Assembly (NCBI GenBank): GCA_024196135.1
Contig: JAMQCK010000008.1
Coordinates: forward strand, 186,001-250,000
Origin: Pleurotus ostreatus/Saccharomyces cerevisiae fusant
Taxonomy: Eukaryota; Opisthokonta
DNA: 64,000 nucleotides
Direction: 5' to 3'
Shown here in pieces: positions 23,483-55,090 of this stretch. The position numbers and the translations under genes were made by a program. Under the pieces are notes generated by a model that saw only the letters and a program-made list of their open reading frames with translations, did no database searches and was not told where the DNA came from. Position 1 is the first letter of the stretch, and every line of letters starts with the position of its first letter.

Positions 23483-26400
23483 ATGGCTGGCTTCCTTCGC
23501 AAAAAGTCCAAGCCAGAGCAGGTCAAGCCCTCGCCTGCTTCCGCCAACAATGGCGCCTCCGCGACTTCTGGCTCCTCTGCGCCTCTCTTCGCTCGTTTCG
23601 CATCAAACCAGGCGCAGCCCCCAGCACCCGCACCGAAGATCGTGTCCGGCCCCATGCTTCTGCAAAGTAATAGCCGACGCGACCCCACGCCGAGGTCAGC
23701 GCCGCGCCCACACGAGGCCGACGCCTACCCGACCCGCAGAGCACCATACGCGGAGCCCCAGCCCAAGCAGACGACCGTGGAACGTCCAACGGACCCAGAT
23801 GCGCGCGGGACGCGTCAGGCAGGACGGATGCCGTCGGACCCTTCTGCGCGGGAAATGCCCCCGCAGAGTAATGGGCGAGGGCCCGCGTCCCAGGCGCGCC
23901 GCACATCGCACTACGAGGTCGACAAGCCGCTCCCCCCTCCCGCGCCCGAGATGCCCTCCCCACCGCCCGTCAGTCGTCAAGCATCGGCGCCACAGCACCC
24001 GACGTCAGATCCCGCACGACGGAGACAGATGAACGGACATGGATCGGCGCCCCCCTCAGCCCGCCCGCAGCGATCAGACGGCAGCGACGCGCCCAAGCGT
24101 GAGATGAATAACGGCAACGGTCGCGCGCCAGAACCCGTCGTCCGCCGTGCGAGCCGGCAGCTCCCTTCCCCTCCCACACAGCAATCCCCGACATCGTCCA
24201 GGCAGCAACATGCCCCCGTCGCACCCTCCGCATACTACCAGTCGCGTGCCCCACAGCAGCGTACACCCTCCACGTCTTCGTCTGGTCACGGTGTGTACGG
24301 GTCGCGTAATGCGAACGGTTCGCGCGATTCCTTCATGTCGCAAGGCTTCTATGGAGGTGACGAGTCGGCTAATTCTCCTTACATGCTCGGTAGTCGGGAT
24401 CCTGGCAGGGTAAGTCCGCCATCTGTCTACCTACGCTGCGTCTACCAGACACCGGGTTTAACGCGTAATGACGCGGTCACGCGCTGTCATGGTCTCCGTG
24501 CGCATAATAAGACGCTAACACACTCGCCAGCATCCGTCCTTGAGTTCCCAATCCCTTGTCTCGCAAGAAGAAGCGCGCCGGCAGGCAGCTGAACCGCCTG
24601 CGAACATGGTGCCTTTTACGTCGACACCGTATTGTCGCCTACTGACATTACATGTAGATTGCTCCGCCCATGCCGCAGAGCAACGTCCCTCGCATATTCC
24701 AAACGACTGGCATGAACGGCCCGCCTGCACTCGCCCCAGTACAACGAGGGAAACCTCGGATCTTTGCTGCCACCGAGGAGCAAAAACCTACACCGCCCGT
24801 TGACATGGCAGCCAAATCCTACCCCTCCCCTCCCGCCGAGTATTCACCTCCACCGCCCAAGCGCATGTCGGTGCACTTGCCGCCTCCGCCTACGAATATT
24901 CCCGCCAGTAACGGCCTTCCGAGGAGTCAAAGTCCCACCAAATCTATTGCAGCTAGCATCAAGGACCATCAGGATCCGCGCGTAATTTCCGGAAGGGAAG
25001 GATCTGGCGCCGACGCCCCATCTACCCGGCGCGCTCCCTCAGACGCGGCTCGCACAAGCCCCGAGACGCCCCACAAGCTCAAGCATAAACCCAAGAGGCC
25101 TCCGACCGTGGCCGCTGCGCCCGCCATGCCCGTCGGCGAGATACCGGACGCTGATATAGGGCTCCTGGATGACGATCCGTTCGCTCGCGTCGAGGGCGTG
25201 CAGTTCATGCGCTCGCCGTCGCGCGCGTCGAATACGAGCAAGGTGCCCGGGATGCAGGATATGGATGCGATCCCGTCACTGCCGCCGTCGAGGGATGGGC
25301 CACCGCCTGCGGGGCCGATGCTGAGGCCGAAGAAGTCGAAGGAGAGCTTTAGGAAGCCGAGGTCGCGGGAAGGGTTGTCGATGCATGAGGCAAACGGGAA
25401 ACCGTCCTCGAGGGAAGGAAAGCCGTCCTCGAGAGATGGAAAGCCGCCCTCGCGAGGGGGCTCGCGAGGGATGGTATCGCCGCCGCCGTCGAGGGAAGGA
25501 CCGCATGGGCACCGGATGTCTACGGCGGAGTCGGAGGACAACTTCGAGGATGCTATCACGTCATTCGAGCCGCCCTCGGTTGCCCCAATCGCGGAGGAGC
25601 CAACAACGCCAATGATTCCTGACGAGGAGCTGCCGCCTGTGACGCCGCCGAAACCTCGTCGGGTTCAACAGCCGCTGTCGCCCGTATCCCCTGAGGACTA
25701 CAAGACCGCACGCACTGGCAGGCGCGGGGCCGGTCTCGAGCGTCGGCCACCATCTTTCATCGGCGGTGTCGAGGTCAAGGAGACTCGCATCCCAGGGCCA
25801 TTCCCCTTACACCGCTTCCTCACCTCGGATCCCGCTCTCCTTGGCGCCTTCCTCCAATACCAAACCTTCTTCGAGTGGTGCACGCTCTCCCGCATCAGCA
25901 AGGCCACCATGTCCACCATTGCGCGCTCCCGCCCGCTTCGCGAGGAGATCCTCGAACGCTTCCTGCACACCGTCGGCTACCGGCGCTGGGCCTGGAGCGA
26001 CGCGGACCCGCTCTCGCTCTCCCTGCGCGATCTGAACGACTACATGCGCGGCGTGACGCTCCCGACGTACGAATATGCTCGGCATGCGGAGGCGTTCAAC
26101 CAACAGCTGAATGTGCCTGCGGAGCAGCGCGATCTGGTGTTAGCGGAGACGATTGCGGCGCTGAGGGCGGCGACGAGGGCGTATAATCGTGTGGTGTTGA
26201 GGCTGCGTGCGCAGGCGGAGCGCCAGGCGCGCGAGCCCCTGCCGCAGAGCCGCGCACCGTCGCCCTCTGCGATGTCCCATGGACACTCGACGATGTCGCA
26301 TGCGTCGAGTCGCGGGTCACCTGTGAGGGGATCGTCTGGGTTCCGCTCTCCGTTGTTTACGCTGCGCCGTGCGCCGCTGTTGCGAGTGTTTGTGCCGTCC

Positions 26401-27251
26401 CCTGAGGGTGACTGGCTGTCGGACGCGAGCATATTAGAATGCGAGGCGGAGTTGAGGCGTGCAGGGGCGATGCAGCACATGCGATTGGGCGATGTGGCAT
26501 GGGATATCGCGGTAGGGGACGAGGGAAATGCAGGCAGACTGATTTGGGATGGGAGTTATCTCATCGTAAGTATAAGTATCTCCGTTGCATCTCAAAGCTA
26601 ACCTTTACCCAGGACCTCGACTACACCTACTCACCCGTCGGCGACACCCCGCGGTACATTCCCTCTCTGGCCTTCCCGCCCTCCTACTTCCACCGCGTCA
26701 TCCGCACGGGCTCCTCCTCGCAAAACCCCATCGTCCGCCTCAACATCATGCCATGGGGCGAGGAGATCGCCGCGAACCTCCAGCTCCTCCAGGACCGCGC
26801 GCGCACTGAGACGCCGCAGGGCTCCTACCACAACGTCGTGCGCTGGGTGCACCGATCCTCCTTCATCTTGCGGCCACGTCGGAGCGCGGGGGGCAGCAGC
26901 GTCGGGCATGGGTCGAGCAGTTCGCGTCCGCCGACCTCAAGGATCCCGATTTATGGGCATGAGGGACTGTTTGTGGATCCGGCTTGGTATGGGACGATTG
27001 TCGTGGAGACGGAGGGGACGAATGAGGCGCTGGCGGACTTGCAGGAGCGGTGTGGTCCGGGAGCTTTCCCTCCTAGGGCCGGCCCACCCGTCAAGCGTGA
27101 GGTGGACAATCGAGAGGTCTTCAGAATTATGCGAGAGCGCAGGTGTGTTGACTCTTGTTTCCATGCGCGTGTATGAGGATGCTGACAACCTCGCAGCCGC
27201 CCCGGTGAGATCTGGCTACGAACCGTCAGCACGAAGGAGCGTATCATATGA
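23483..27251 (+). CDS. Large proline-rich protein with conserved C-terminal domain, function unknown
   Basis: The start MAGFLRKKSKPEQVKPSPASA is followed by about 650 residues of disordered Pro/Ser/Arg-rich sequence, including YSPPPPKRMSV, and a short tandem repeat (GKPSSRE/GKPSSRD/GKPPSRG). The C-terminal half is folded and well ordered: FPLHRFLTSDPALLGAFLQY, FFEWCTLSRISKATMSTIAR, RSPLFTLRRAPLLRVFVPSP, EGDWLSDASILECEAELRRA, DLDYTYSPVGDTPRYIPSLAF and SYHNVVRWVHRSSF. I recall such sequences as conserved in Agaricomycetes without a named domain. Introns near 24411, 24609, 26563 and 27144 join in frame, and the last exon reads SRPGEIWLRTVSTKERII with TGA at 27249-27251. PxxP-rich arms suggest SH3 or cortical partners, as inference only. 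Confidence 0.75.
25396..25458 (+). repeat. Three tandem 21-bp units within the proline-rich coding region
   Basis: Three imperfect 21-bp copies at 25396-25416, 25417-25437 and 25438-25458 encode GKPSSRE, GKPSSRD and GKPPSRG. Related SREG and SRDG units flank them. The unit length preserves the frame, so copy-number change would only alter the disordered arm. Confidence 0.8.
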
Positions 27252-27647
27252 AGTTCCCCAACGAAGGAGAAGCGACTCCCCCAATGAAGGGGCGCCGGAC
27301 TCCCGTCTGAGTTATTGCTATCGTCCCGCTTTCGCTTTCGTTCGATTGGGCACACTGAAGCATAGAACAATAAGTATTGTAACATTATTTTAGACAAGCC
27401 GGACGCTGGGTAATCGTTCCTTGGGCCTTCCTGTGTAGGGATACTTTATGTAGCAACCAATGGTATAGTTGATACCTTCTCCGTAGCGGCTGGTCCTGCC
27501 TGAGTAGACGAAAGTGGGGGTCCTTTGATCGCATACAAGGACGGCGAGAGAATTTTCAGTTGTGAGAGATCAGGCAGGTTTAGTATACAACCAGTTTAGG
27601 TACAGCGACAGACGACCAAAGCAAAGGAAGAACAATCAACGAATCCC
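27252..27647. other. Intergenic between convergent genes
   Basis: About 400 bp of 3' flank shared by the proline-rich gene and RPA1. No ORF or repeat of note. Confidence 0.5.
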
Positions 27648-29845
27648 TCAGATCTCTGCACCCCACTCTGACTGCAGCTTGTCGCGCATGTACTGCGCCT
27701 CCTTGACGAAGTCAACAGGCTCGACCTTCGTGATACCGTACCGAACGCGAGTCTCATCCTGAGAACTTGATCAGCAAAAGAAGGCGCGCGACACATTGGA
27801 AGAGACCTACATTCCATGTGTCTGCCTTTGCGCGGCAGTTGAAATTGAAGGCTTGGTAGTTCGCCTGTGCGAAGGCGCGGAGGACGCCGTCGTCATCGCC
27901 CGCCTCCTACGATGGTATTAGCACAACGATAGTGATACGGAGCTTCAGGAAAGACGCACCTTCATCTGCATGATCTCGTTCGCCGACCTATTGAAGATGA
28001 TCTGACCGGCATCGTTGAAGCCCTGGAACCATGCCTGGCCGTGCAGATCCGCGACGGCGAGCTGAAGCATGAAGCTAAGACGCATAATCAGCATCGATTG
28101 CCTTCGTATCCTCCTGCAATACTGACCGGTAGTCCGGCGACGAGTGCGACACGTTGCACTTCTCGCAGCGCCACTCCCCAGGCCCATTCTCCACAACCTT
28201 CTTATTGCAATCCGGGCTCCTGCACGCCGGATACGCAAAGTTGTTGTCCTTGATATGCATAATCGTCGCCCTCGACGAGAAGTAGTCCGGCTGGTCGCCC
28301 ATCCCCAAATTTGCATTCTTGATCTCCATCAGCGTGCGCTGGTCGTCGCGGTCGAAGCCGCGCCCGGTGCCCGGACCGCCGCCGCCGCTCGTGTGCGACG
28401 AGAACTGCAGCGTCTTGCCGTCGTCGTCGAACCAGCCGCGGAGGTGGAAGGCCTCGGTGGTATCCGGGTTGACGAACATCATGGACGACATGAGCATGGA
28501 GAGGGAGCGGCCGCCGAAGTCACCGACTTTGACGCCCTTGAAGGCGATGACGGGGTGTCCTTCCTCCTCGTACTTCTCGGCAGTGTTGCCCCAGAGGGTG
28601 ACGCGGACGGAGAAGCCGGTGTCGTCGACCAGTGTTAGCTCGCGCTTCTTCATCGTGCGGTTCGTTGTCTTGGTGGTGATCTCGGACAGCTCGCCAACCT
28701 CTTTCACGACGCCGATAACATCTGTGCAATGTCAGAAAGAGCGCAGCGAGCGAGCAAACATCATATGTACCGCAGTTGGAATCCTTGGGGACCTCTTGCA
28801 GCGCGTCAAGCTTGACAAAGTTGTACTTGATAGTCGGCACATCGGCAGCCTCCAAGCACTAGGACATTGTTTATCAGCGCATGCCAGCTCGCAACACCGT
28901 TGCACTCACAGGCTCGACCTCCGTGCTACGCTCGAGACTAAGCTCATAGTCGTTGTTGACATTGGAGAACTTCTTCTTGGCAAGGTTGACGCGCGCCTTT
29001 GATACAAAGTACACCTTTCCCTCCTCGAACTTGTCGTACAACTCGTCCACAGCCTGATTGAAGCCGGTGGCGCGGATCTCGCCCGTGTCGTCCATCAAGG
29101 TGACATTGAACAAGCGGCCCTCTCCGCGCTGGTTCGACCACCTGCGGATGTCGGACTTCTGCGTGACACGCGCCTTGATCGTCCAGTTGTTCTGGTAGGG
29201 GCTGAGACCCTCGATGGGGTAGATAGATCGGCCGTTAGGCGCCGTGTTCTTGCTGTCACGGTGAGGCTGAGCGGGCAGTTGGGGTGTGGAAGTGCGGGGG
29301 ACAGCAGATGTGCTGGGCGCCGCGGCGGGCTTCGATTGAGGGGCCGGCGATTGGCCGTTCTCTCCGTCCGGCTTGACTTTGAGATACTCGGACGGAAGGG
29401 ACCAAGGCTGCTTCTCATCGTTGGGATCCCTTCTCAGCTTCTCGTCGAAATGCTGGACGATTTCCAGGCCAAGAACAATTACAAGCCTGTAGAGCACATG
29501 AGATAGGTCACAAATCTCAGGAAGGTGAACGCACCTCCTGTTCTGCACTATATTACGCGACGCGCGTGATATACGCACGATCGAGTTCTTCTCGATCCCG
29601 ACATCGTTCAGCTGCGTGGCAAGCATGGCTTGCATAAACCATTCGCCATCCGACAAGATAATGCGGAGGCGCTCAGCCTGGCCCGGCTTTGGTGCAGGCT
29701 TTTCCCCCTGCTTGCCCTCCTTGCCCTCGTTGATGCTTTTGACCGACAGCGCCTGCAGAACGACACCGGAGTTGAAGAGGTCGTCATCGTCGTCACAAGT
29801 TGCGAGCCTCATGATAGCGCCTTTGGTGAGCATATCCACTGACAT
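27648..29845 (-). CDS. RPA1: Replication protein A large subunit (RPA1/RFA1)
   Basis: RPA1 binds single-stranded DNA in replication, repair and recombination. The start at 29843-29845 gives MSVDMLTKGAIMRLATCDDD and the N-terminal OB fold (LRIILSDGEWFMQAMLATQL, IVRISRASRNIVQNRR, LVIVLGLEIVQHF). After a Pro/Ala-rich linker come DBD-A (IEGLSPYQNNWTIKARVTQK, GRLFNVTLMDDTGEIRATGF, YELSLERSTEVEPC), DBD-B (IKYNFVKLDALQEV, RELTLVDDTGFSVRVTLWG, GRSLSMLMSSMMFVNPD) and DBD-C with its zinc ribbon (YPACRSPDCNKKV, WRCEKCN). The end reads YMRDKLQSEWGAEI with TGA at 27648-27650. All four OB folds are present at normal length. About eight introns. It is divergent from the membrane-protein gene at 30660, with a wide 814-bp spacer. 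Confidence 0.95.
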
Positions 29846-30659
29846 GATTGCGGATGTCTTCGTGTTGCAGGGACGATATGGAGGTGGGAGGCAGGCGCGA
29901 ATGGTCACAGTGTGACTGAGCGCGTCAGATGAGTGAGACGCGCACGTGCCTTGTGACTGGTCGTATCGAGATCGGAACCGAGGGTCAAGATGAGCTTGGA
30001 GCTGCAAGGGGCTTTTAAGGCCTGACCGTACACCTGGATTCATTGCCACAAATCTTGTGCCTCCGCACAGTCAGTGGCCCTGCTTCGCGAACACGCCATA
30101 AACTTTGGCAAGATGGAATAGCACGCAGATCAGGACGTCTCAAAACCCGTCATCCCCTAGTACGCCGAACATTGTTGACGAGAATCTCAATGAAGAGACG
30201 CTGCTGAGTTCCGCGGCAGCCAGCGATCTACAGCCTCGAGAGCACGCCAATGAGTAGTGTGACATCAACAATCACAGTAACGCCCGAAGCTTCCAAACGG
30301 AGATACAGCCGGTCAGTGCATGATCAACTTCGATTCTGCAACGCAAACACCGCGACGGCCGACGCATCTTTAAATACGTCCAATCTGTGTTCTCTGGCTT
30401 TGCGCCCCTTCCCCCTCCCTCTGCCACCAAGCGCCACTCCCCCTCGGCACTTCAGCGCGAACACCGCCATTTCCCCCTCCGCGACGCGTGCAGCGACGAT
30501 TAGGCAAGCTCCGAATTGAGACGACCGACGCGTCGAACGCGCGCGTTTCTGGCGACTGGCGGCATCCAGCGCGTGTCTCGTTGAAGAGGGACCCCGACAG
30601 TGCCAGCAACTGCTGAACTTGTACCACCACTCGTCCTGTAGCCTTAGCACAGAACCATC
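29846..30659. promoter_or_regulatory. Divergent RPA1 / membrane-protein promoter region
   Basis: This 814-bp spacer has no supportable gene. ACGCGT (MCB-like) boxes occur at 30484-30489 and 30528-30533, within 180 bp of the gene at 30660 and about 640-690 bp from RPA1. A CCCCTT/CCCTC-rich pyrimidine tract lies at about 30402-30430. MCB boxes are typical for replication genes in ascomycetes, but here they are closer to the other gene. Confidence 0.4.
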
Positions 30660-47503: not shown

Positions 47504-50500
47504 TCACATGACGGTGCAACCCCAACCGCTATTTCTTCTCTGCGCTTCCTCCCGTTGGCGTTGTTCATTCTCGAGTCTGCGAGCCTCCACCTGCCACTGT
47601 CTATTTGGATACACCTCCCTCGGATACTGCGCCGCCTCCGTCTGCTGAGCCTGTCTGTTTATCTCCTCTGTTCTCCTTCGCTGCGCCTCCCGCCTCTGCG
47701 CGATGTCCCTGAGGATACGGTGCTGCTCCATGATATCGACAGCGTCATACTCGAATTCCCGAGGACGTGGCGGCGGCGGATGCTGCGGTGGCGGTAGCCT
47801 ATGAGGCACCTGCGCTGGTGGTGCCTGCTGAGGCGCCTGCGCGGGACGCACATCTTCGTATATCCCACCGTGTGCTTGCGTCATATGATCATAGATCTCG
47901 TCGCGAGGGAACACTTGAGTGCATCTCCAGCAGAAGTGTGCACCGCAGCGACATGAGATGTGGTTGCAGCCTTCCGTCTTTTCTACGAGCACTTGGCAAG
48001 TTGGGCAACGCTTGAAGTTCTGCTCGGCGATGAGCGCATCGTTCAATCGCTCGTCGTGCTTTCGCTGGACGTCGCGCGCATTCTCCTCGCATGTCCTACC
48101 GACGTGTGCCCCTTCGTTGCAGCCCGTGCAGACGGTCGCGAAGCACGACGGACAGGACAAGAACTGCTGGTCACCGCTGGTAACATACACCTGCTCGCAC
48201 GCAGCAGTCCGGCAGTACTTCAGTTTGTCCGGGTTCCTCTCAATGTGCGCCGTGAACGCAGCGTCGAAGAGCTTCGTCACCGCATCCTCGGTGAGGAACT
48301 TGCGTATCGTCGGGATGGGAATTGGCACCGCGCAGGTCGCATCCTCCCCGATGCATAGGAGAGGGAAGGTCTTGTTCTCCGTCGCGCTCGACAGCAGATG
48401 CTTGGCGCAGGCCGTGCAGTAGATGTGGCCGCACCCTAGACGGAACGGAGCGGACGGCTCCATGTAGCAGACTGGACACGTCGCATCCACAGCCGCGGAG
48501 GGGCGATACGTCGCGGACTCCGTGATATGGCGCTCTACCGCGCGTCGCGCTGCCTCACCGCCGCGGACGACGACATTGCACCGCGCGCGGGGGCCGTCGA
48601 GCTTCGCGTTCTCCTCGCCGAGCTCCTCCTTGAGGGCGGGAATGCCCTGGCGCAGGAAGTACGCCACAACCGCTGGCTTGATTGGAATCGAAATTTCTAG
48701 CGCTGCCAGCCGGTCCTCCTCCTGCTGGATCTGCTCGCGGGCTGCAAGAATCGCAGCCGGCTCGCCAAACGCCTTGAGCGTATGCGTGCGCGCATCGCGC
48801 AGGATAAACGTCCCCGTGCGCTCCGCCACGCCATCTAGGTACCGTTCGGTGAGGCCCGCGACCCATACCGCAAGGATCGGCCCTCGCGCAAGGTCCTCTG
48901 CGCGAACCTTAAGCTGCCCCACAGCCTCCTTCTCCTTCCCCGATATCTGGATGAAGACATGGGGCCGACCGGGGTGTCGCGGGGCGTCGATCCGCAAGGA
49001 CGCGGCCGCCCCGCTGCCAGCGAGTTCGTCCCATTGGCGCTTCTGGACGTTGTATTGCCGGACCGGGATGGAGAGTTTGTACTGCACAGGCTCGTCCAGA
49101 CGGGTATACAGCGGCCAGTTGCCGTTCCAGGTGAACCTCCTCTGGCCTTCGAGGCTGACGCGTACGCGCTCTGCTACACCACCATCGTCGAAAGCCACGC
49201 GCGCCTGGATCATCTTCTCGTTGGGACGCGTGGTGTTTGTAATCTGCGCCGCCGGTGCGTACAGCCTAATGTGGTGGCCCAGCTGAACAATTGCGTCGTC
49301 GACGTTGTAGTCTTTTGCCAACTGTCTCAGTATATCGGTGGCGTCAGTGAAGCGGGAGACGTCGTCAGTCGAGACAGAGAGAGGCAGACCATCCACAATG
49401 ATCGAGGTTGAGGGCAAACCCATATTAAAAGGACCCGCATTCCGAGGCCTTCGAACGAAAACATTGACCCGCCGTCCAGATAGTATACGGCCATTCAGCT
49501 CGTGGGCCTTGGATTCAGCCAAGTCCGACGAAAGGTACGTAGCCATGTAGCTGACCGACGGCGCTCTCCACCATATGGCGAGCACGTAAGTCGAGCTCCC
49601 GGTCACGCCGCCGCCATCGACCAGGGTCGCGCTAAGGCGATTGCCATCCATCTCGGCGTCATCGATTGCCTCCACCAGACGCTCGGCCTCATCCCGCTTG
49701 ACGAGGACCTCGCCTTCGCGCTTGTATCGATTATGCGAAACGACGCGGAAGTCTCCCGCAGATACGTCCTGTCCTAGGATCAGGAGCGAGAGGGTGTCGA
49801 GCGTCGCGTTTGCCGGAAGACCGGTGATTCGGACGATAGACGTGTGGAAGCCGGTTACAAGAGAGTGGATGGTGGCACCGGCACTGAAGGTGACAATGGA
49901 GCCGCCGATTAGCCTCGTGAAGGTATGGTCGGCTTCCTCTCGAACGATGCGTGCAAGGCGGGCTTCGTTTTCTGCTTCCTTTGCTGCGGCTCGTTGCGCA
50001 CGAGCCTGTTGATTCGCTTGACCGGACGAACTAGAGGAAGCAACTGGCGGCGTAGATTCTTCAAAAATAGGAGGTACCTGAGGTGCGGGCGAGCCAGGGG
50101 GAAGCTGCGCGTACGATAGCGTAAGTCGCCAGATATACAACCGAGCATTGCGATTGCGCACCTCCGTATCATGGCTGAATCGGCAGTTATCGCCTCGATT
50201 GCACTTTCCTTTGCTGTAGTAGGAACACTTCTGCACGCCATTGCGAAGCCCTTCAGTTTCCGATCGCAAGGTTCCTAAGAACATATCAGCATATGCGGAT
50301 ATTACTACCGTGGATCACACTGACCGTTAGCGGGAGGACGTCCTCTGCCACGGCCTCGAGACGCGCCACGTCTCTGTTGCTTGTTCGACCACTGAGAGGT
50401 CGATTAACCAATGCTTATCATACGAAGTAGCTGGGACGAATAAACGTGTGCTCACCGCATCTTGTACCGTCGGCCTACCGACATTGGCATCGTGACTAAA

Positions 50501-50584
50501 CTGACAATTCTCCCGTCTGCAGTTCCCAGCTTGATAGAACCGACACGTTGGCCGACTCCTCGATTGTTGTCTGTTGACTTGCAT
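47504..50584 (-). CDS. RBR-type E3 ubiquitin ligase with CCCH fingers and C-terminal CaaX box (copy A)
   Basis: RBR ligases take ubiquitin from an E2 onto a RING2 cysteine, then to the substrate. The start at 50582-50584 (MQVNRQQSRSRPT) opens a first CCCH finger, CRFYQAGNCRRENCQFSH, then a QQRRGASRGRGRGRPPANG linker and a second finger, CSYYSKGKCNRGDNCRFSH. An RRM-like region (IVRITGLPANATLDTLSLLI) and a KH-like region (ERTGTFILRDARTHTLKAFG) precede RING1 (CPVCYMEPSAPFRLGCGH), IBR (CPSCFATVCTGCNEGAHVG) and RING2 (CPTCQVLVEKTEGCNHISC), with the likely catalytic Cys in EGCNH. The protein ends RRNSGWGCTVM: CTVM is a CaaX prenylation motif. Four exons; introns near 50457, 50322, 50162. Tandem partner of the gene at 51451. 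Confidence 0.88.
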
Positions 50585-51450
50585 CCCCTGTCGTTGTGAT
50601 GGTGGCGAGGAAGAAAAACCGTCATTCGCTATTAAGCGCCCGCCCTTCTTAAGCCCGCAGGCCAAGGCGTGGGGACCTGGCCAACATTAGCGGTACTAGG
50701 ATGACGTTTGGTCGCCGTTTCGTGCCCAGTGAGGCCGAAGGAGTCCCGGGCTTCGATGTCTCATGACACAAGAATTGAGCACTTCTGGTGCACAATAGTA
50801 CGATAACAGTATAGCTGAGGACATCAAGATGCATGAGTTCGATTGATGCGACAAACCTGATTAACGAGCTTTACCTTTACCAGCGCAATTTTGAGTGGCG
50901 CACAGGTTGCCCATCGTGACTCGATGCCCAGAATTTCTTCGTACACCTTCTTGTCGGACACAAGCGGTAATCAAAGACAATCTTGAGGAAGATAGCCATC
51001 TCCCGAAAAACCTAGTACATATTCCGATCCAGGGACAGGCCGCAGTATTCATTGGCTTCCCTCCGCCCTTGATTGAAGGGAAGGTTATGACTCTGACAAG
51101 TGATGCGCCATCAAATAAAGTGTCGTCTGGATGAAAGGATAGCGGCGAAGGAATTTCACAAACGGATGAAGACAAGGTGGGAAGTAATGACACGGCGATT
51201 GCCGAACCACCAAAGGTGCGACGCCCACAGCCCCAAATATACACAAGCAAGCTGATAGCGATCTACTTGTTCGTCAGTCTAGTTGCAAAAGCATGAAATA
51301 TTGTCAGTAACGACGCATATTCCTCCGTCGCGCTTTGACTACCCGCCTCATCAGCCAAGCTGGTTCCTAGAAATGATTACTCGGAGAATGAATGTACTAC
51401 GAATGGGCCCGAATAGTTCGGACTCGAAAGGGTACACATATACATCGATG
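50585..51450. other. Intergenic region between the two RBR ligase genes
   Basis: About 870 bp between the copies. The left part is the copy A promoter, with GTACTAGGATGACGT at 50693-50707. The right part is the 3' flank of copy B. No gene seen. Confidence 0.5.
50693..50707 (-). promoter_or_regulatory. Element shared by the two RBR promoters (copy A)
   Basis: The 15-mer GTACTAGGATGACGT (+ strand) lies about 110 bp upstream of the copy A start and recurs at 54750-54764 upstream of copy B. It includes TGACGT, a CRE/ATF half-site. Surrounding sequence is much less alike, so the 15-mer stands out. Confidence 0.5.
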
Positions 51451-54400
51451 TCACATAATATTGCACTCCAAGATATGGCGCTTTCTCCTCCAAATTCCCT
51501 TCCGCTTGCGTGTATATGGCTCCGTCGTGAAATCATACATCGCCGGTATCCGTCGCACTCGTTGCAACATTACAAGATTTGGATATGGAGCAGTGGGGGT
51601 AGGCGTGCGTCGTCTAGTATCTTCAACCTCATGAGATTCATCGGACTCGTTGAGCTCATCAGCGTCCTCAGCCTGTATCCCTCTTCGTCAAACTTCCCCA
51701 AGAATATTGTACCGCTCCAGAGCATGGACCTCGTCGTCCTGCAAGGGCTCGGCGTATGGCGTTGGCGCTCGATCGTAGTCGTCAAATTGCGGAGGAGGAA
51801 AATACGGATTGTATGCTTCAAGTCTTCGCCTCATTTCGAAGTACGCTCTTGGTCGATGGATTGGAGGTGCTACGTCCGGCCGGATATCCTCGCCTATACC
51901 GTATCCTCCGTGGGCCTCCGTCATATGCTCGTAGATCTCGTCGCGTGGGAAGACCTGAGCGCACCTCCAGCAGAAATGGACACCACAGCGACATTCGATG
52001 TGATTGCAGCCTTCGGTCTTCTCGACGATGACCTGGCAGCTCGGACAGCGCTTGTAGTTCTGCTCAGAGATGAACGCATCGTTGAGTTCGTCGTGCTTCC
52101 TCCGGATGTCCCGAGTGACCTCTTCGCATGTCCTGCCCTCATGCTGGACTTCCCCGCAACCAGTGCAGATGGCAGCGAAGCATGAGGGGCAGGTTAATAC
52201 ACGCCGTACACCACTAGTACTGTGAACCTGCCCGCACGCTGCAGTGCGACAATACTTGAGCTGGTCCGGGTGCCGTTCGACATGCGCTGCGAAGGCCGCC
52301 GCAAAGAGCTTCGCCATCGCGTCCTCGGCCAGGAATCTCCGGATCGTTGGAATGGGTACGGGAACCCCACAGGTGACATCGTCCCCTATGCAAAGGAGCG
52401 GGAAGGTCTTGTTCTCCGTCGCGCTAGAGAGCAAGTGCTTCGCGCAGGTTGTACAATAGACGTGGCCGCACCCCAGACGGAATGGCGCGCAGGCCTCCGT
52501 GTAGCAGACTGGACATATGGTATTCGCAGCCACAGGGAGGCGGTAGGTCGCAGCTTCGGTCATATGCCGCTCGACGGCGCACCGAGCGACTTCGCCGCCA
52601 CGAACGACTACGCTGCACCGCTCCCGAGGCCCAGCCAGTCTCGCATGATGCTGCCCAAGCTCCTCCTTGAGCGCCGTAATGCCTTGACGTTGGAAATACG
52701 ACACAAGCGCCGGCTCGATCGGGAACACTGTCTCCAGCCGTGCCAGACGGCTCTCCTCTCCCCTGATCTCCTCGCGCGCTCGAAGGATCGCAGCCGGTTC
52801 GCAAGACACCTTTAGCGAGCGGGTTTGCGCGTCCGGCAAGATGTACATCCCTGTGCTCTCTGCAACGGCGTCCAAGAATTGCTCGGTGAGACCCGCTGGC
52901 CATGCTCCTAGATCCACCCCTCGCGCAAGGTCCTCGGCGCGCACCTTGAGTCGGCCCACCGCCTCCTTCTCCTCACCGCGTATTCGTATGGAGATATTTC
53001 GCCGGTCTTCATGATGCCGGATTTCCATCTTCAGCGACGCCATCGCTCCGCCACTGGCGAGTTCACCCCACTGGCGCTTCTGGGCCTCGTATTGCCGGGC
53101 CGGGATGGTTAGCTTGTACTGCACGGGGGCGTCGAGGCGCGTGTGCACCCGCCATCTCCCATTCCACGGGAAGCTCCTTTGACCGTCAAGGCTGGAGCGT
53201 AGACGCCCAGCTGCTGCGCCATCGTCGATGGTAATTCGGACCATGACCATGTCTTCCTTGGATCCCGGACGCGTGACGTGTTCGATTCGCGCGCCCGGGG
53301 CGTGCTTACGGACGTGGTCTTCCAGGAAGGATATCGACTGGTCGATATCGTAGTCCCCGAACGGCTGCCTGACCACGTCGTCGGTGCCCGCGAAGCGAGA
53401 GACCTCACCGTCCGTGACGGAAACGGGAAGTCCATTCACGATGACTGCCGTCGAGGGCAGAACATCAAGGTTCGCATTTCGTACGTTCTGAACGATAGCT
53501 TGGACTCGCCTATCGCGCATGGGCCGGCCATTCAGTGCGCGGGCTCGAGATTCTGCGGAGGCGGTCGAGCGGTACGTGGCGACGTAGCTCACGGACGGCG
53601 CCCTCCACCAGATAGATAGCACGTAGCTTGGATTACAGGTCACTCCGCCTGCGTCGACCACGCTCGCGCGCAACCGACTGCCGTCCATGTCCGCGCCATT
53701 GAGCGCTGCGACCAGCTTCTTGGCGTACCTGCATTCGACGAGGACCTCGCATACGTTGTTGTAGGTGTCGTGCGAAGACACCCAGAAGCTTTCCGGAGGG
53801 ATGCCACGGCGGTCGATCAGAAGCGAGACGGACTCGGGCGTCGACCTAGTTGGAAGACCGGTAATCTTGACGGTTGAGATGTGGGATCCGGCGACAAGAT
53901 ACTGGATCGCGGCGCCAGCGCCGAAGGTGACGATACATCCACTGATCGATTTCTTGAACGTATGCGCAGCGTCGTCCTGGACGATACGTGCAAGGCGGAC
54001 CTCGCGCTCCGCGTCTCCGGCTGCACCCCGTTCTTCGTGACTGGGACGCCGCTCTGACGAGCCCGACGAGGACTCAAGAGCAGGCGCGCATGTCTGTTCG
54101 ATGATGACGGGTAATTGAGTCCGAGATGAGCTCACAGGAAGCTATACGTGGGAAGTAATGAGTTACTGCACACGATCAACAACGCGTCGACGCACCTCCG
54201 AATAGTGGTGGAAGCGGCAGTTTTCGCCTTGGATACAATTCCGTTTGCTGTGATACAGGTATACACTCGCGCCAATATTACGGTCTTCGCTACTGGAGCG
54301 GAGGTCAGCTGGTAATGGTTTAGCATCTTCGAATATGTGGCACGGGATCAAACCGACCACTATGGGGAGGGCGGCCTGCCCTTGCATTTTGAGGTATACC

Positions 54401-54619
54401 TTGTCTTCGCTGGTCGCTCAGCTTCCTGATACTCTTAAAAAGACCGTATGTAAGAAACAAAGTTTTCAAGAGGAACAGGCGTTTGCTCACCGAGCTTGAC
54501 GCCGCCCCACTGATGTTTCCAACTGAATAGAACTGGCCGCCTCCTCTTGTACTGTCCCCGACCTGAACAGAGTGTGAGAGCGGGGGTGCCCTCGATTGCT
54601 GCTGGTTGCTCTGCATCAT
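51451..54619 (-). CDS. RBR-type E3 ubiquitin ligase with degenerate CCCH region and alternative CaaX tail (copy B)
   Basis: A tandem duplicate of the preceding gene, alike from the RRM-like part onward. Start at 54617-54619 (MMQSNQQQSRAPPLSHSV). The first finger is lost (GQFYSVGNISGA where copy A has CRFYQAGNCRRE) and the second lacks its first Cys (VYLYHSKRNCIQGENCRFHH). RING1 (CPVCYTEACAPFRLGCGH), IBR (CPSCFAAICTGCGEVQHEG) and RING2 (CPSCQVIVEKTEGCNHIEC) are intact. A 57-nt intron (51673-51729, donor gtccat, branch tttgac, acceptor atacag) contains an in-frame TGA at 51688-51690. Spliced, the protein reads LQDDE-AEDADELNESDESHE, then a basic TRKRKGIWRRKRHILE and CNIM, a CaaX box, stopping at 51451. 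Retained, it ends ERYNILGEV without a lipid anchor. The N-terminal exon model (a 26-nt exon 2) is tentative. Confidence 0.82.
51673..51729 (-). promoter_or_regulatory. Frame-neutral intron carrying a stop codon, copy B
   Basis: A 57-nt intron (19 codons) whose only in-frame stop is TGA at 51688-51690. Splicing adds the basic CaaX tail; retention ends the protein early. Donor gtccat is weak, which would favour partial retention. Confidence 0.55.
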
Positions 54620-54997
54620 GGATGAGAAGAGGGGAGTGGCTGGAGGGCGCGAGCAGGAAGCAAGGTGGTCACTGGTCAGTCGGCCAATATGAAGCGCCCT
54701 CCCTCTTTAGTGCCGACAGCACGAGCTTTCAGCCAGGCAGGGCTGTGCAGTACTAGGATGACGTCTAGCCCGCGTTCTGTCCTCTGCAAGGCCAGAAAAG
54801 TCCTGGCCGTTGCATTCCCATGGCAAAAGTGATTCGATTGGATCACGGGGTATTCAAGGTGGAGGTCGCTGCAAAAGTCAAACCATGAGTCCGGGCGAAG
54901 CGGCAAGTCGGATCGATCAACTCACCCTTTCTAGGGCCGCTCGACTGCGGCAGGGAGGCAAGCAGAGCAGGAAAAAAGTCACGTACGCTTCTTTATC
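54620..54997. other. Intergenic: copy B promoter and 3' flank of tRNA-Asn
   Basis: About 380 bp. The left half carries the copy B promoter, including the shared 15-mer at 54750-54764. The right end flanks the tRNA 3' end; on the minus strand a T-rich run (GACTTTTTTCC) lies about 20 bp downstream of the tRNA and may act as Pol III terminator. Confidence 0.5.
54750..54764 (-). promoter_or_regulatory. Element shared by the two RBR promoters (copy B)
   Basis: Second occurrence of GTACTAGGATGACGT, about 130 bp upstream of the copy B start codon. It matches the copy at 50693-50707 base for base over 15 bp. Confidence 0.5.
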
Positions 54998-55090
54998 TGC
55001 CCCGGTGAGGCTCGAACTCACGATCTTGTGATTGCAGACTCGAAGCTGTAAGTAACAGTCACACGCCTTAACCAGCTGGGCCACGGGGCA
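54998..55090 (-). tRNA. tRNA-Asn (GTT) with a 20-nt intron
   Basis: The minus strand folds as a standard tRNA. The 7-bp acceptor stem is TGCCCCG with CGGGGCA. The D arm includes AGCTGGTTAAGG. The anticodon stem TGTGA/TCACA encloses a 7-base loop with GTT, the Asn anticodon, at 55054-55056. The T arm is GTGAG-TTCGAGC-CTCAC. A 20-nt intron (55033-55052 on the + strand) interrupts the loop one base 3' of the anticodon, the canonical position for eukaryotic tRNA introns. The discriminator base is G. A T run about 20 bp downstream may terminate Pol III. The sequence around the anticodon (TTAAGGCGTGTGACTGTTA) matches the Asn isoacceptor well. Confidence 0.93.

Follow-up and report, generated by a model that had tools for sequence, protein, structure and literature searches.

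A CaaX-ending RING1-IBR-RING2 protein with CCCH fingers from a fungal genome, probably one of an Agaricomycete family of farnesylated ubiquitin ligases

Gene organization of the locus

The analysed stretch (the window) comprises 64,000 nucleotides, bases 186001-250000 of contig JAMQCK010000008.1, in a fungal genome of about 40 Mb (assembly GCA_024196135.1, deposited as a Pleurotus ostreatus/Saccharomyces cerevisiae fusant). Two neighbouring genes on its minus strand, designated copy A and copy B, encode RING1-IBR-RING2 (RBR) ubiquitin ligase modules. A preliminary description regarded them as a tandem pair of RBR ligases, each with CCCH fingers and RRM-like and KH-like regions and each ending in a CaaX prenylation box. 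The complete RBR module is present in both genes. Copy A has the box, CTVM, at the end of its open frame and two intact fingers, whereas the box of copy B lies beyond an in-frame TGA and both of its fingers have lost cysteines. Of the two genes, copy A is therefore intact and copy B an altered duplicate. Copy A probably represents an Agaricomycete family of farnesylated, membrane-tethered RBR ligases with RNA-binding modules and an acceptor-poor tether. Its features, all on the minus strand, are as follows.

47504..50284, minus: main open frame of copy A, 926 codons plus stop, C-terminus ...SGWGCTVM
50492..50545, minus: first CCCH finger, CRFYQAGNCRRENCQFSH, encoded by the exon-like upstream frame 50327-50665, with putative splice sites
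50171..50227, minus: second CCCH finger, in the main frame
49415..49867, minus: RRM-like region (approximate limits)
48497..48997, minus: KH-like region (approximate limits)
47870..48478, minus: RING1-IBR-RING2
47966..47968, minus: predicted catalytic Cys of RING2, residue 773, in EGCNH
47519..47869, minus: R/E/Q/A-rich, lysine-free tail, predicted to form a single alpha-helix
47507..47518, minus: CaaX box CTVM

The IBR domain of copy A scores 53.7 bits against Pfam (cut-off 24.3), and an alignment with ARIH1 spans RING1 to RING2. Profile and alignment comparisons give ARIH1, ARIH2, RNF216 and CUL9 as RBR relatives. The zinc-ligand columns of the RBR module are invariant across the 69 rows of an alignment of copy A with its fungal relatives (A1), which places copy A among the RBR ligases. 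The column of Cys773, aligned to GCNHMVC of ARIH1, is equally invariant, as is expected of an RBR catalytic cysteine. Over 382 columns of the RBR region, copy A is 98% identical to protein P0001 of Schizophyllum commune, which assigns the genome to S. commune or a very near relative. The second CCCH finger scores 27.4 bits (cut-off 20.5), the first is reached through a putative splice, and the consensus of another alignment (A2) also has two CCCH fingers.

Between RING1 and IBR, a segment of about 19 residues (VPIPIPTIRKFL...) is kept in copy A, P0003 and P0004 and is missing from the deposited models of P0001, P0002, P0005 and P0006. The gap reflects either a wrongly called in-frame intron or real alternative splicing.

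Conservation of the CaaX box

A protein search with residues 400-826 of copy A found 182 relatives, and the figures below cover the best 120 of them. A Cys at position -4 is present in 92 of these 120, so the box is more than a chance ending. Among the 92, Met occupies -1 in 91 and I, L or V occupies -2 in 91, while -3 varies. A Met at the X position of a CaaX box predicts modification by farnesyltransferase. Both CTVM of copy A and the Met ends of the relatives are of this type, and farnesylation is predicted for the family, in keeping with the CaaX-anchored ligases of the preliminary description. An aromatic residue stands one or two places ahead of the Cys in 80 of the 92. Alignment A1, which consists of copy A and 68 author-selected relatives including 6 of the 28 without a box, shows 91% conservation of the Cys and 93% of the Met; the top residue of the tail columns averages a frequency of 28%.

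The 92 CaaX relatives include 52 named species (hand count). A check of the order, made for one species each, covered the Auriculariales, Russulales, Atheliales, Polyporales and Boletales; the Agaricales contribute Schizophyllum, Mycena and Amanita, among others. Two or three relatives apiece, on contigs of equal length, occur in Amanita phalloides, A. thiersii, Marasmius oreades and Desarmillaria tabescens, among others, hinting at clustered duplication.

Three long-tailed relatives, P0027, P0031 and P0032, have a hydrophobic, tail-anchor-like end in place of the CaaX box. Their mean Kyte-Doolittle values over 16 residues are 2.1, 2.0 and 1.8, respectively, against at most 0.94 in any other of the 120. 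They sit in separate parts of the tree, and the replacement of the box by a hydrophobic end points to membrane attachment.

Relatives lacking a C-terminal Cys had been named as grounds for giving up the CaaX interpretation; with the Cys retained in 92 of the 120, the interpretation withstands that condition, and a sister subfamily serves as a control. The box-less paralogue L026, used as query, retrieved 229 proteins. Among the 120 listed, a Cys at -4 occurs in a single one, P0183, whose CRAA end is probably a run-on gene model. Sister-subfamily tails mostly extend 5-15 residues past RING2; that of P0183 extends 27, and three proteins have no measured tail. The two subfamilies are parted by a single branch with support of 100 in both the FastTree tree (152 rows) and the IQ-TREE tree (62 rows). 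To explain where the box occurs, the former tree requires a minimum of 15 changes and the latter of 9, which are read as losses or cut gene models.

Composition of the tail between the ligase and the box

The tail could be measured in 90 CaaX relatives (10860 residues, the last ten residues of each protein excluded) and is 51-297 residues long. Compared with the remainder of the protein, it is depleted in lysine (0.17%, 19 residues, versus 5.2%), serine (0.30% versus 6.5%), cysteine (0.06% versus 3.5%) and threonine (1.5% versus 5.7%), whereas arginine rises from 8.4% to 18.4%. Serine is absent from 73 of the 90 tails and lysine from 80, and with arginine retained these 80 show the pattern of a lysine desert, a long conserved lysine-free stretch that keeps arginine.

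Overlapping 80-residue windows with at least 50% R/E/Q/A, taken from the 240 proteins of both searches, provide a composition control. They hold 4.96 lysines outside the tails (713 windows, 83 proteins) and 0.21 within them (468 windows, 85 proteins). The corresponding values are 1.71 and 0.31 for serine and 2.09 and 1.21 for threonine. In 60-residue windows with 42-55% R/E/Q/A, lysine numbers 2.98 outside the tails and 0.07 within. Because R/E/Q/A-rich windows elsewhere hold lysine, composition alone does not explain the lysine gap of the tail.

Opposite charges are in excess at spacings i+3 (1251, shuffled 765) and i+4 (1222, shuffled 778), while like charges are depleted (572 at i+3 and 394 at i+4; shuffled 758 and 755). 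The remaining charge spacings are close to or over the shuffled values. This charge pattern is a sign of a single alpha-helix. The net charge of the tails has a median of 0 (lowest -13, highest 12), with means of 2.4 basic and 1.9 acidic residues in the ten positions ahead of the Cys. The K-Ras-like polybasic-plus-lipid signal of the preliminary description rested on the basic stretch RKRKGIWRRKRH, which precedes the CNIM box of copy B, downstream of the TGA, and is atypical for the family; with a median charge of 0, such a signal is rejected for the family. Palmitoylation was considered as a second membrane signal and rejected: a Cys occurs within the ten residues ahead of the box in 1 of 92 relatives.

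RNA-binding-type modules

Copy A and 44 CaaX relatives (45 rows) were scanned against Pfam at E<=0.1. RRM_1 is matched in 33 of the 45 rows and zf-CCCH in 29. Copy A itself has no Pfam RRM match at this threshold, and its KH-like region reaches 14.5 bits with KH_DEAH11_2nd, under the cut-off of 27. The whole-protein RRM_1 score exceeds the cut-off in P0044, P0089, P0060 and P0059, although no single stretch does. The A1 profile matches the RRMs of HuR (E 5.7e-5) and the CCCH fingers of TMA46 (E 1.6e-4) and tristetraprolin (E 1.7e-4). These domain matches suggest that the copy A family may bind RNA. Among the 17 Pfam families matching the main frame of copy A at E<=0.1, there is neither a DEAH helicase nor a member of the PARP family.

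Paralogues in the genome

Three further copies in the same genome fall on the CaaX side. L023 (paralogue C) lies on the same contig as copies A and B and ends in DWGCNVM, L024 ends in GNCIVM, and L025 ends in GYGCMVM. The frame of L025 (52-4539, minus strand, of a 24000-30000 locus on another contig) reaches its box after a P/Q/A-rich tail of 792 residues with 6 lysines and 4 serines. The box thus ends four of the five own-genome copies on the CaaX side. Two divergent copies, L026 and L027, stop directly after RING2 and have no box.

The CCCH finger of paralogue C (about 1569-1625 of L023) has lost one Cys. Adjoining this paralogue (L023 5050-5508, contig about 277050-277508), a fragment of the N-terminal half of the family has stops within the match and is probably a decayed copy.

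Copy B as an altered duplicate

The features of copy B, also on the minus strand, are as follows.

51688..54135, minus: main open frame, 815 codons plus TGA, RBR kept, end ...NILGEV-TGA
54485..54538, minus: first CCCH finger, cysteines lost
54205..54261, minus: second CCCH finger, first Cys lost
51910..52515, minus: RING1-IBR-RING2
51688..51690, minus: in-frame TGA, within the stretch aligned to copy A coding sequence
51454..51465, minus: CNIM box, in the same frame, starting at the 75th codon past the TGA

By sequence, copy B is a diverged duplicate: its RBR module is kept, its fingers are broken and its anchor is either cut off by the stop or dependent on a putative splice. The CNIM box is in frame yet beyond the TGA and can be reached only by a splice around it. 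A search for in-frame introns of 40-140 nucleotides with YAG acceptors yielded two candidates that remove the TGA, one of 57 nucleotides (donor GTCCAT) and one of 99 nucleotides (donor GTACAA). That copy B yields a functional CNIM-ending protein through such a short intron is a tentative possibility. Past the TGA, the frame remains open over 78 codons and ends in CNIM, and a C-x-[I/V]-M before a stop would arise by chance in about 5 in 100,000 cases (an estimate with uniform codons). The box probably derives from that of the family, as paralogue C ends in CNVM. The core is under purifying selection, with an NG86 omega of 0.235 between A and B (synonymous divergence, dS, 1.23) and 0.303 between B and C, and with dS at least 1.0. 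However, both donors depart from the usual consensus GTRNGT, and the putative intron aligns to copy A coding sequence. Moreover, the residues after the TGA (3 K, 2 S and 7 T among 78) are unlike the tails of the family, and both CCCH fingers are broken.

The tree paths from the node shared by A, B and C are 0.38 for B, 0.32 for C and 0.09 for A. Branch length does not decide the state of copy B, because the path of C, which keeps its box, is near that of B; the short end branch of copy A is due to a strain orthologue in the tree. A genome search with the 3' DNA of copy B gave no match besides copy B itself. Since the pair and the polybasic signal both rest on copy B, neither is supported.

Proposed mechanism

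Farnesylation of the C-terminal CaaX box would place the ligase at the cytosolic face of membranes, where the aromatic residue ahead of the Cys probably reinforces the weak grip of a single farnesyl group. The charged single alpha-helix, of about 120 residues, would keep the ligase off the membrane, with a calculated span of about 18 nm at 0.15 nm per residue. At the far end, the N-terminal CCCH, RRM and KH-like modules may bind RNA or ribonucleoproteins and so pick the substrate. The RBR module would take ubiquitin from an E2 onto Cys773 and hand it to proteins of the bound ribonucleoprotein or of the nearby membrane. Because the tether has almost no lysine, serine or cysteine, the ligase would spare its own tether. 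An excerpt of a study of other lysine deserts reports that added lysines raised the ubiquitylation of some such proteins (PMC10169902).

Weighing the interpretation

That copy A belongs to a family of farnesylated, membrane-tethered RBR ligases is likely, and several observations weigh against it. The box is absent from 28 of the relatives covered, which are themselves the best 120 of 182. Of these, 18 stop no later than 39 residues past RING2 (P0010 already within the RBR module) and 10 have tails of at least 58 residues. Eleven of the short ones form one clade, which may mark a true loss or gene models truncated at an intron. In the IQ-TREE tree, P0008 of Exidia glandulosa (Auriculariales) groups with the Schizophyllum copies with support of 100, far from its species position. 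It is poor evidence that the box is as old as the split of the Auriculariales, and its placement may be due to gene transfer, old paralogy or a long-branch effect. The KH_DEAH11 and KH_DEAH11_2nd matches are weak and occur in 14 and 13 of the 45 rows scanned. Serine is less depleted in the tail than lysine, and threonine less than serine; a low-complexity helix may partly account for the low serine. As for the prenylation machinery, it counts in favour that the genome matches PF01239 (prenyltransferase alpha), PF00432 (beta-type) and the ICMT family at the family level, as candidates for a farnesyltransferase and a CaaX methylase. On the other side, PF00432 also includes triterpene cyclases, and the ICMT family also matches 5 of 14 prokaryote controls. 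The genome search gave 0 matches to an Rce1-like protease, one of which may be hidden by introns.

The conserved W-G-C-x-x-M end might instead be a protein-binding or degron-like tail that is not prenylated. The aromatic residue ahead of the Cys would fit such a motif, since CaaX boxes need not have one. However, I/L/V at -2 and Met at -1 are each found in 91 of the 92 while -3 varies, and three relatives replace the box by a hydrophobic segment, so that an unprenylated motif appears improbable. The scarcity of lysine and serine in the tail could be a mere consequence of R/E low-complexity repeats or of codon bias, with no link to ubiquitin. The tail is of low complexity with a helical pattern, in which a scarcity of serine is not unusual, and the gaps of serine and threonine in matched windows are smaller than that of lysine. 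Three observations speak against it: R/E/Q/A windows elsewhere have roughly five lysines per 80 residues, the P/Q/A-rich tail of L025 has only 6 lysines and 4 serines in its 792 residues, and 51 of the 117 codons of the copy A tail are one base away from a lysine codon. Such an explanation of the tail is unlikely.

A further possibility is an antiviral role in fungi, with the family uniting in one chain the functions of ZAP-L, which is farnesylated and has CCCH fingers, and the ubiquitin ligase TRIM25. Copy A shares the combination of CCCH fingers and CaaX box with ZAP-L, whose antiviral activity needs the CaaX Cys according to an excerpt of the report on it (PMC8568172), and the genome holds clustered copies including decaying members. 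On the other hand, copy A has no PARP-like domain, the data analysed hold no link to a virus, and quality control of ribonucleoproteins or of the endoplasmic reticulum would fit the same anatomy; the antiviral role is quite unlikely. A bolder proposal, for which the chance is small, is a one-chain farnesyl-tethered RNA sensor and ligase, widespread in mushrooms, that would combine the tasks of ZAP-L and TRIM25 to counter RNA viruses or stray ribonucleoproteins on membranes. Its RBR module would also modify Ser and Thr, hence a tether that has shed K, S and C.

Relation to known systems

The plant helicase-RBR proteins DEAH11 and DEAH12 resemble copy A in having a KH-like region, weakly matched in copy A, followed by the RBR module. 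In contrast to them, copy A has no DEAH helicase match and adds N-terminal CCCH fingers, a helical tail and the CaaX box. Two of the fungal relatives listed, P0053 and P0068, carry DEAH12-derived names. ARIH1, ARIH2, RNF216 and CUL9 have the RING1-IBR-RING2 arrangement and the GCNH Cys of RING2 in common with copy A. However, the match to Ariadne-type ligases is limited to the RBR module, to which copy A adds RNA-binding-type modules and a lipid box. RNF144 and RNF19 are transmembrane RBR ligases. Their RBR modules are held at the membrane, as is proposed here, through transmembrane segments rather than a lipid; the tail-anchored look of P0027, P0031 and P0032 recalls them.

ZAP-L, the long form of PARP13, is the nearest functional parallel, with both CCCH fingers and a CaaX box. 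The same excerpt describes its C-terminal CaaX box as S-farnesylated and its CaaX Cys as supporting membrane association (PMC8568172). ZAP-L differs in having a PARP-like domain where copy A has the RBR module, a separate ligase in TRIM25 and the box CVIS. Prenylated ligase subunits are already known: the SCF receptor FBXL2 is an F-box/LRR protein geranylgeranylated by GGTase3, without an RBR or RNA-binding modules in the part of the source consulted (PMC7729025). Lysine deserts are reported, in the excerpt cited above, for the ubiquitin-system proteins RAD23A, UBQLN1, BAG6 and San1 (PMC10169902). They share with the present tail a long conserved stretch that is free of lysine and contains arginine, whereas the tail adds a charged single-helix pattern and a lipid box and is also low in serine and cysteine.

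Among the titles and abstract openings listed from the open-access literature searched, none describes a CaaX RBR ligase or this fungal family. The co-mentions of "ring-between-ring" and "CaaX" examined there concern a CAAX reporter and FBXL proteins. If the proposal holds, prenylation would join the ways by which RBR ligases reach membranes, and a single polypeptide would recognise RNA, transfer ubiquitin and carry a lipid anchor. The tail lends itself to testing whether ubiquitin enzymes shed acceptor residues near their active site, and the excerpt on lysine deserts itself raises the question of serine or threonine deserts (PMC10169902). The relatives of copy A extend to a fungus suited to such work. 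Schizophyllum commune is genetically tractable.

Neighbouring tRNA gene

Directly upstream of copy B, a tRNA-Asn gene (anticodon gtt) lies at 54997-55090 on the minus strand.

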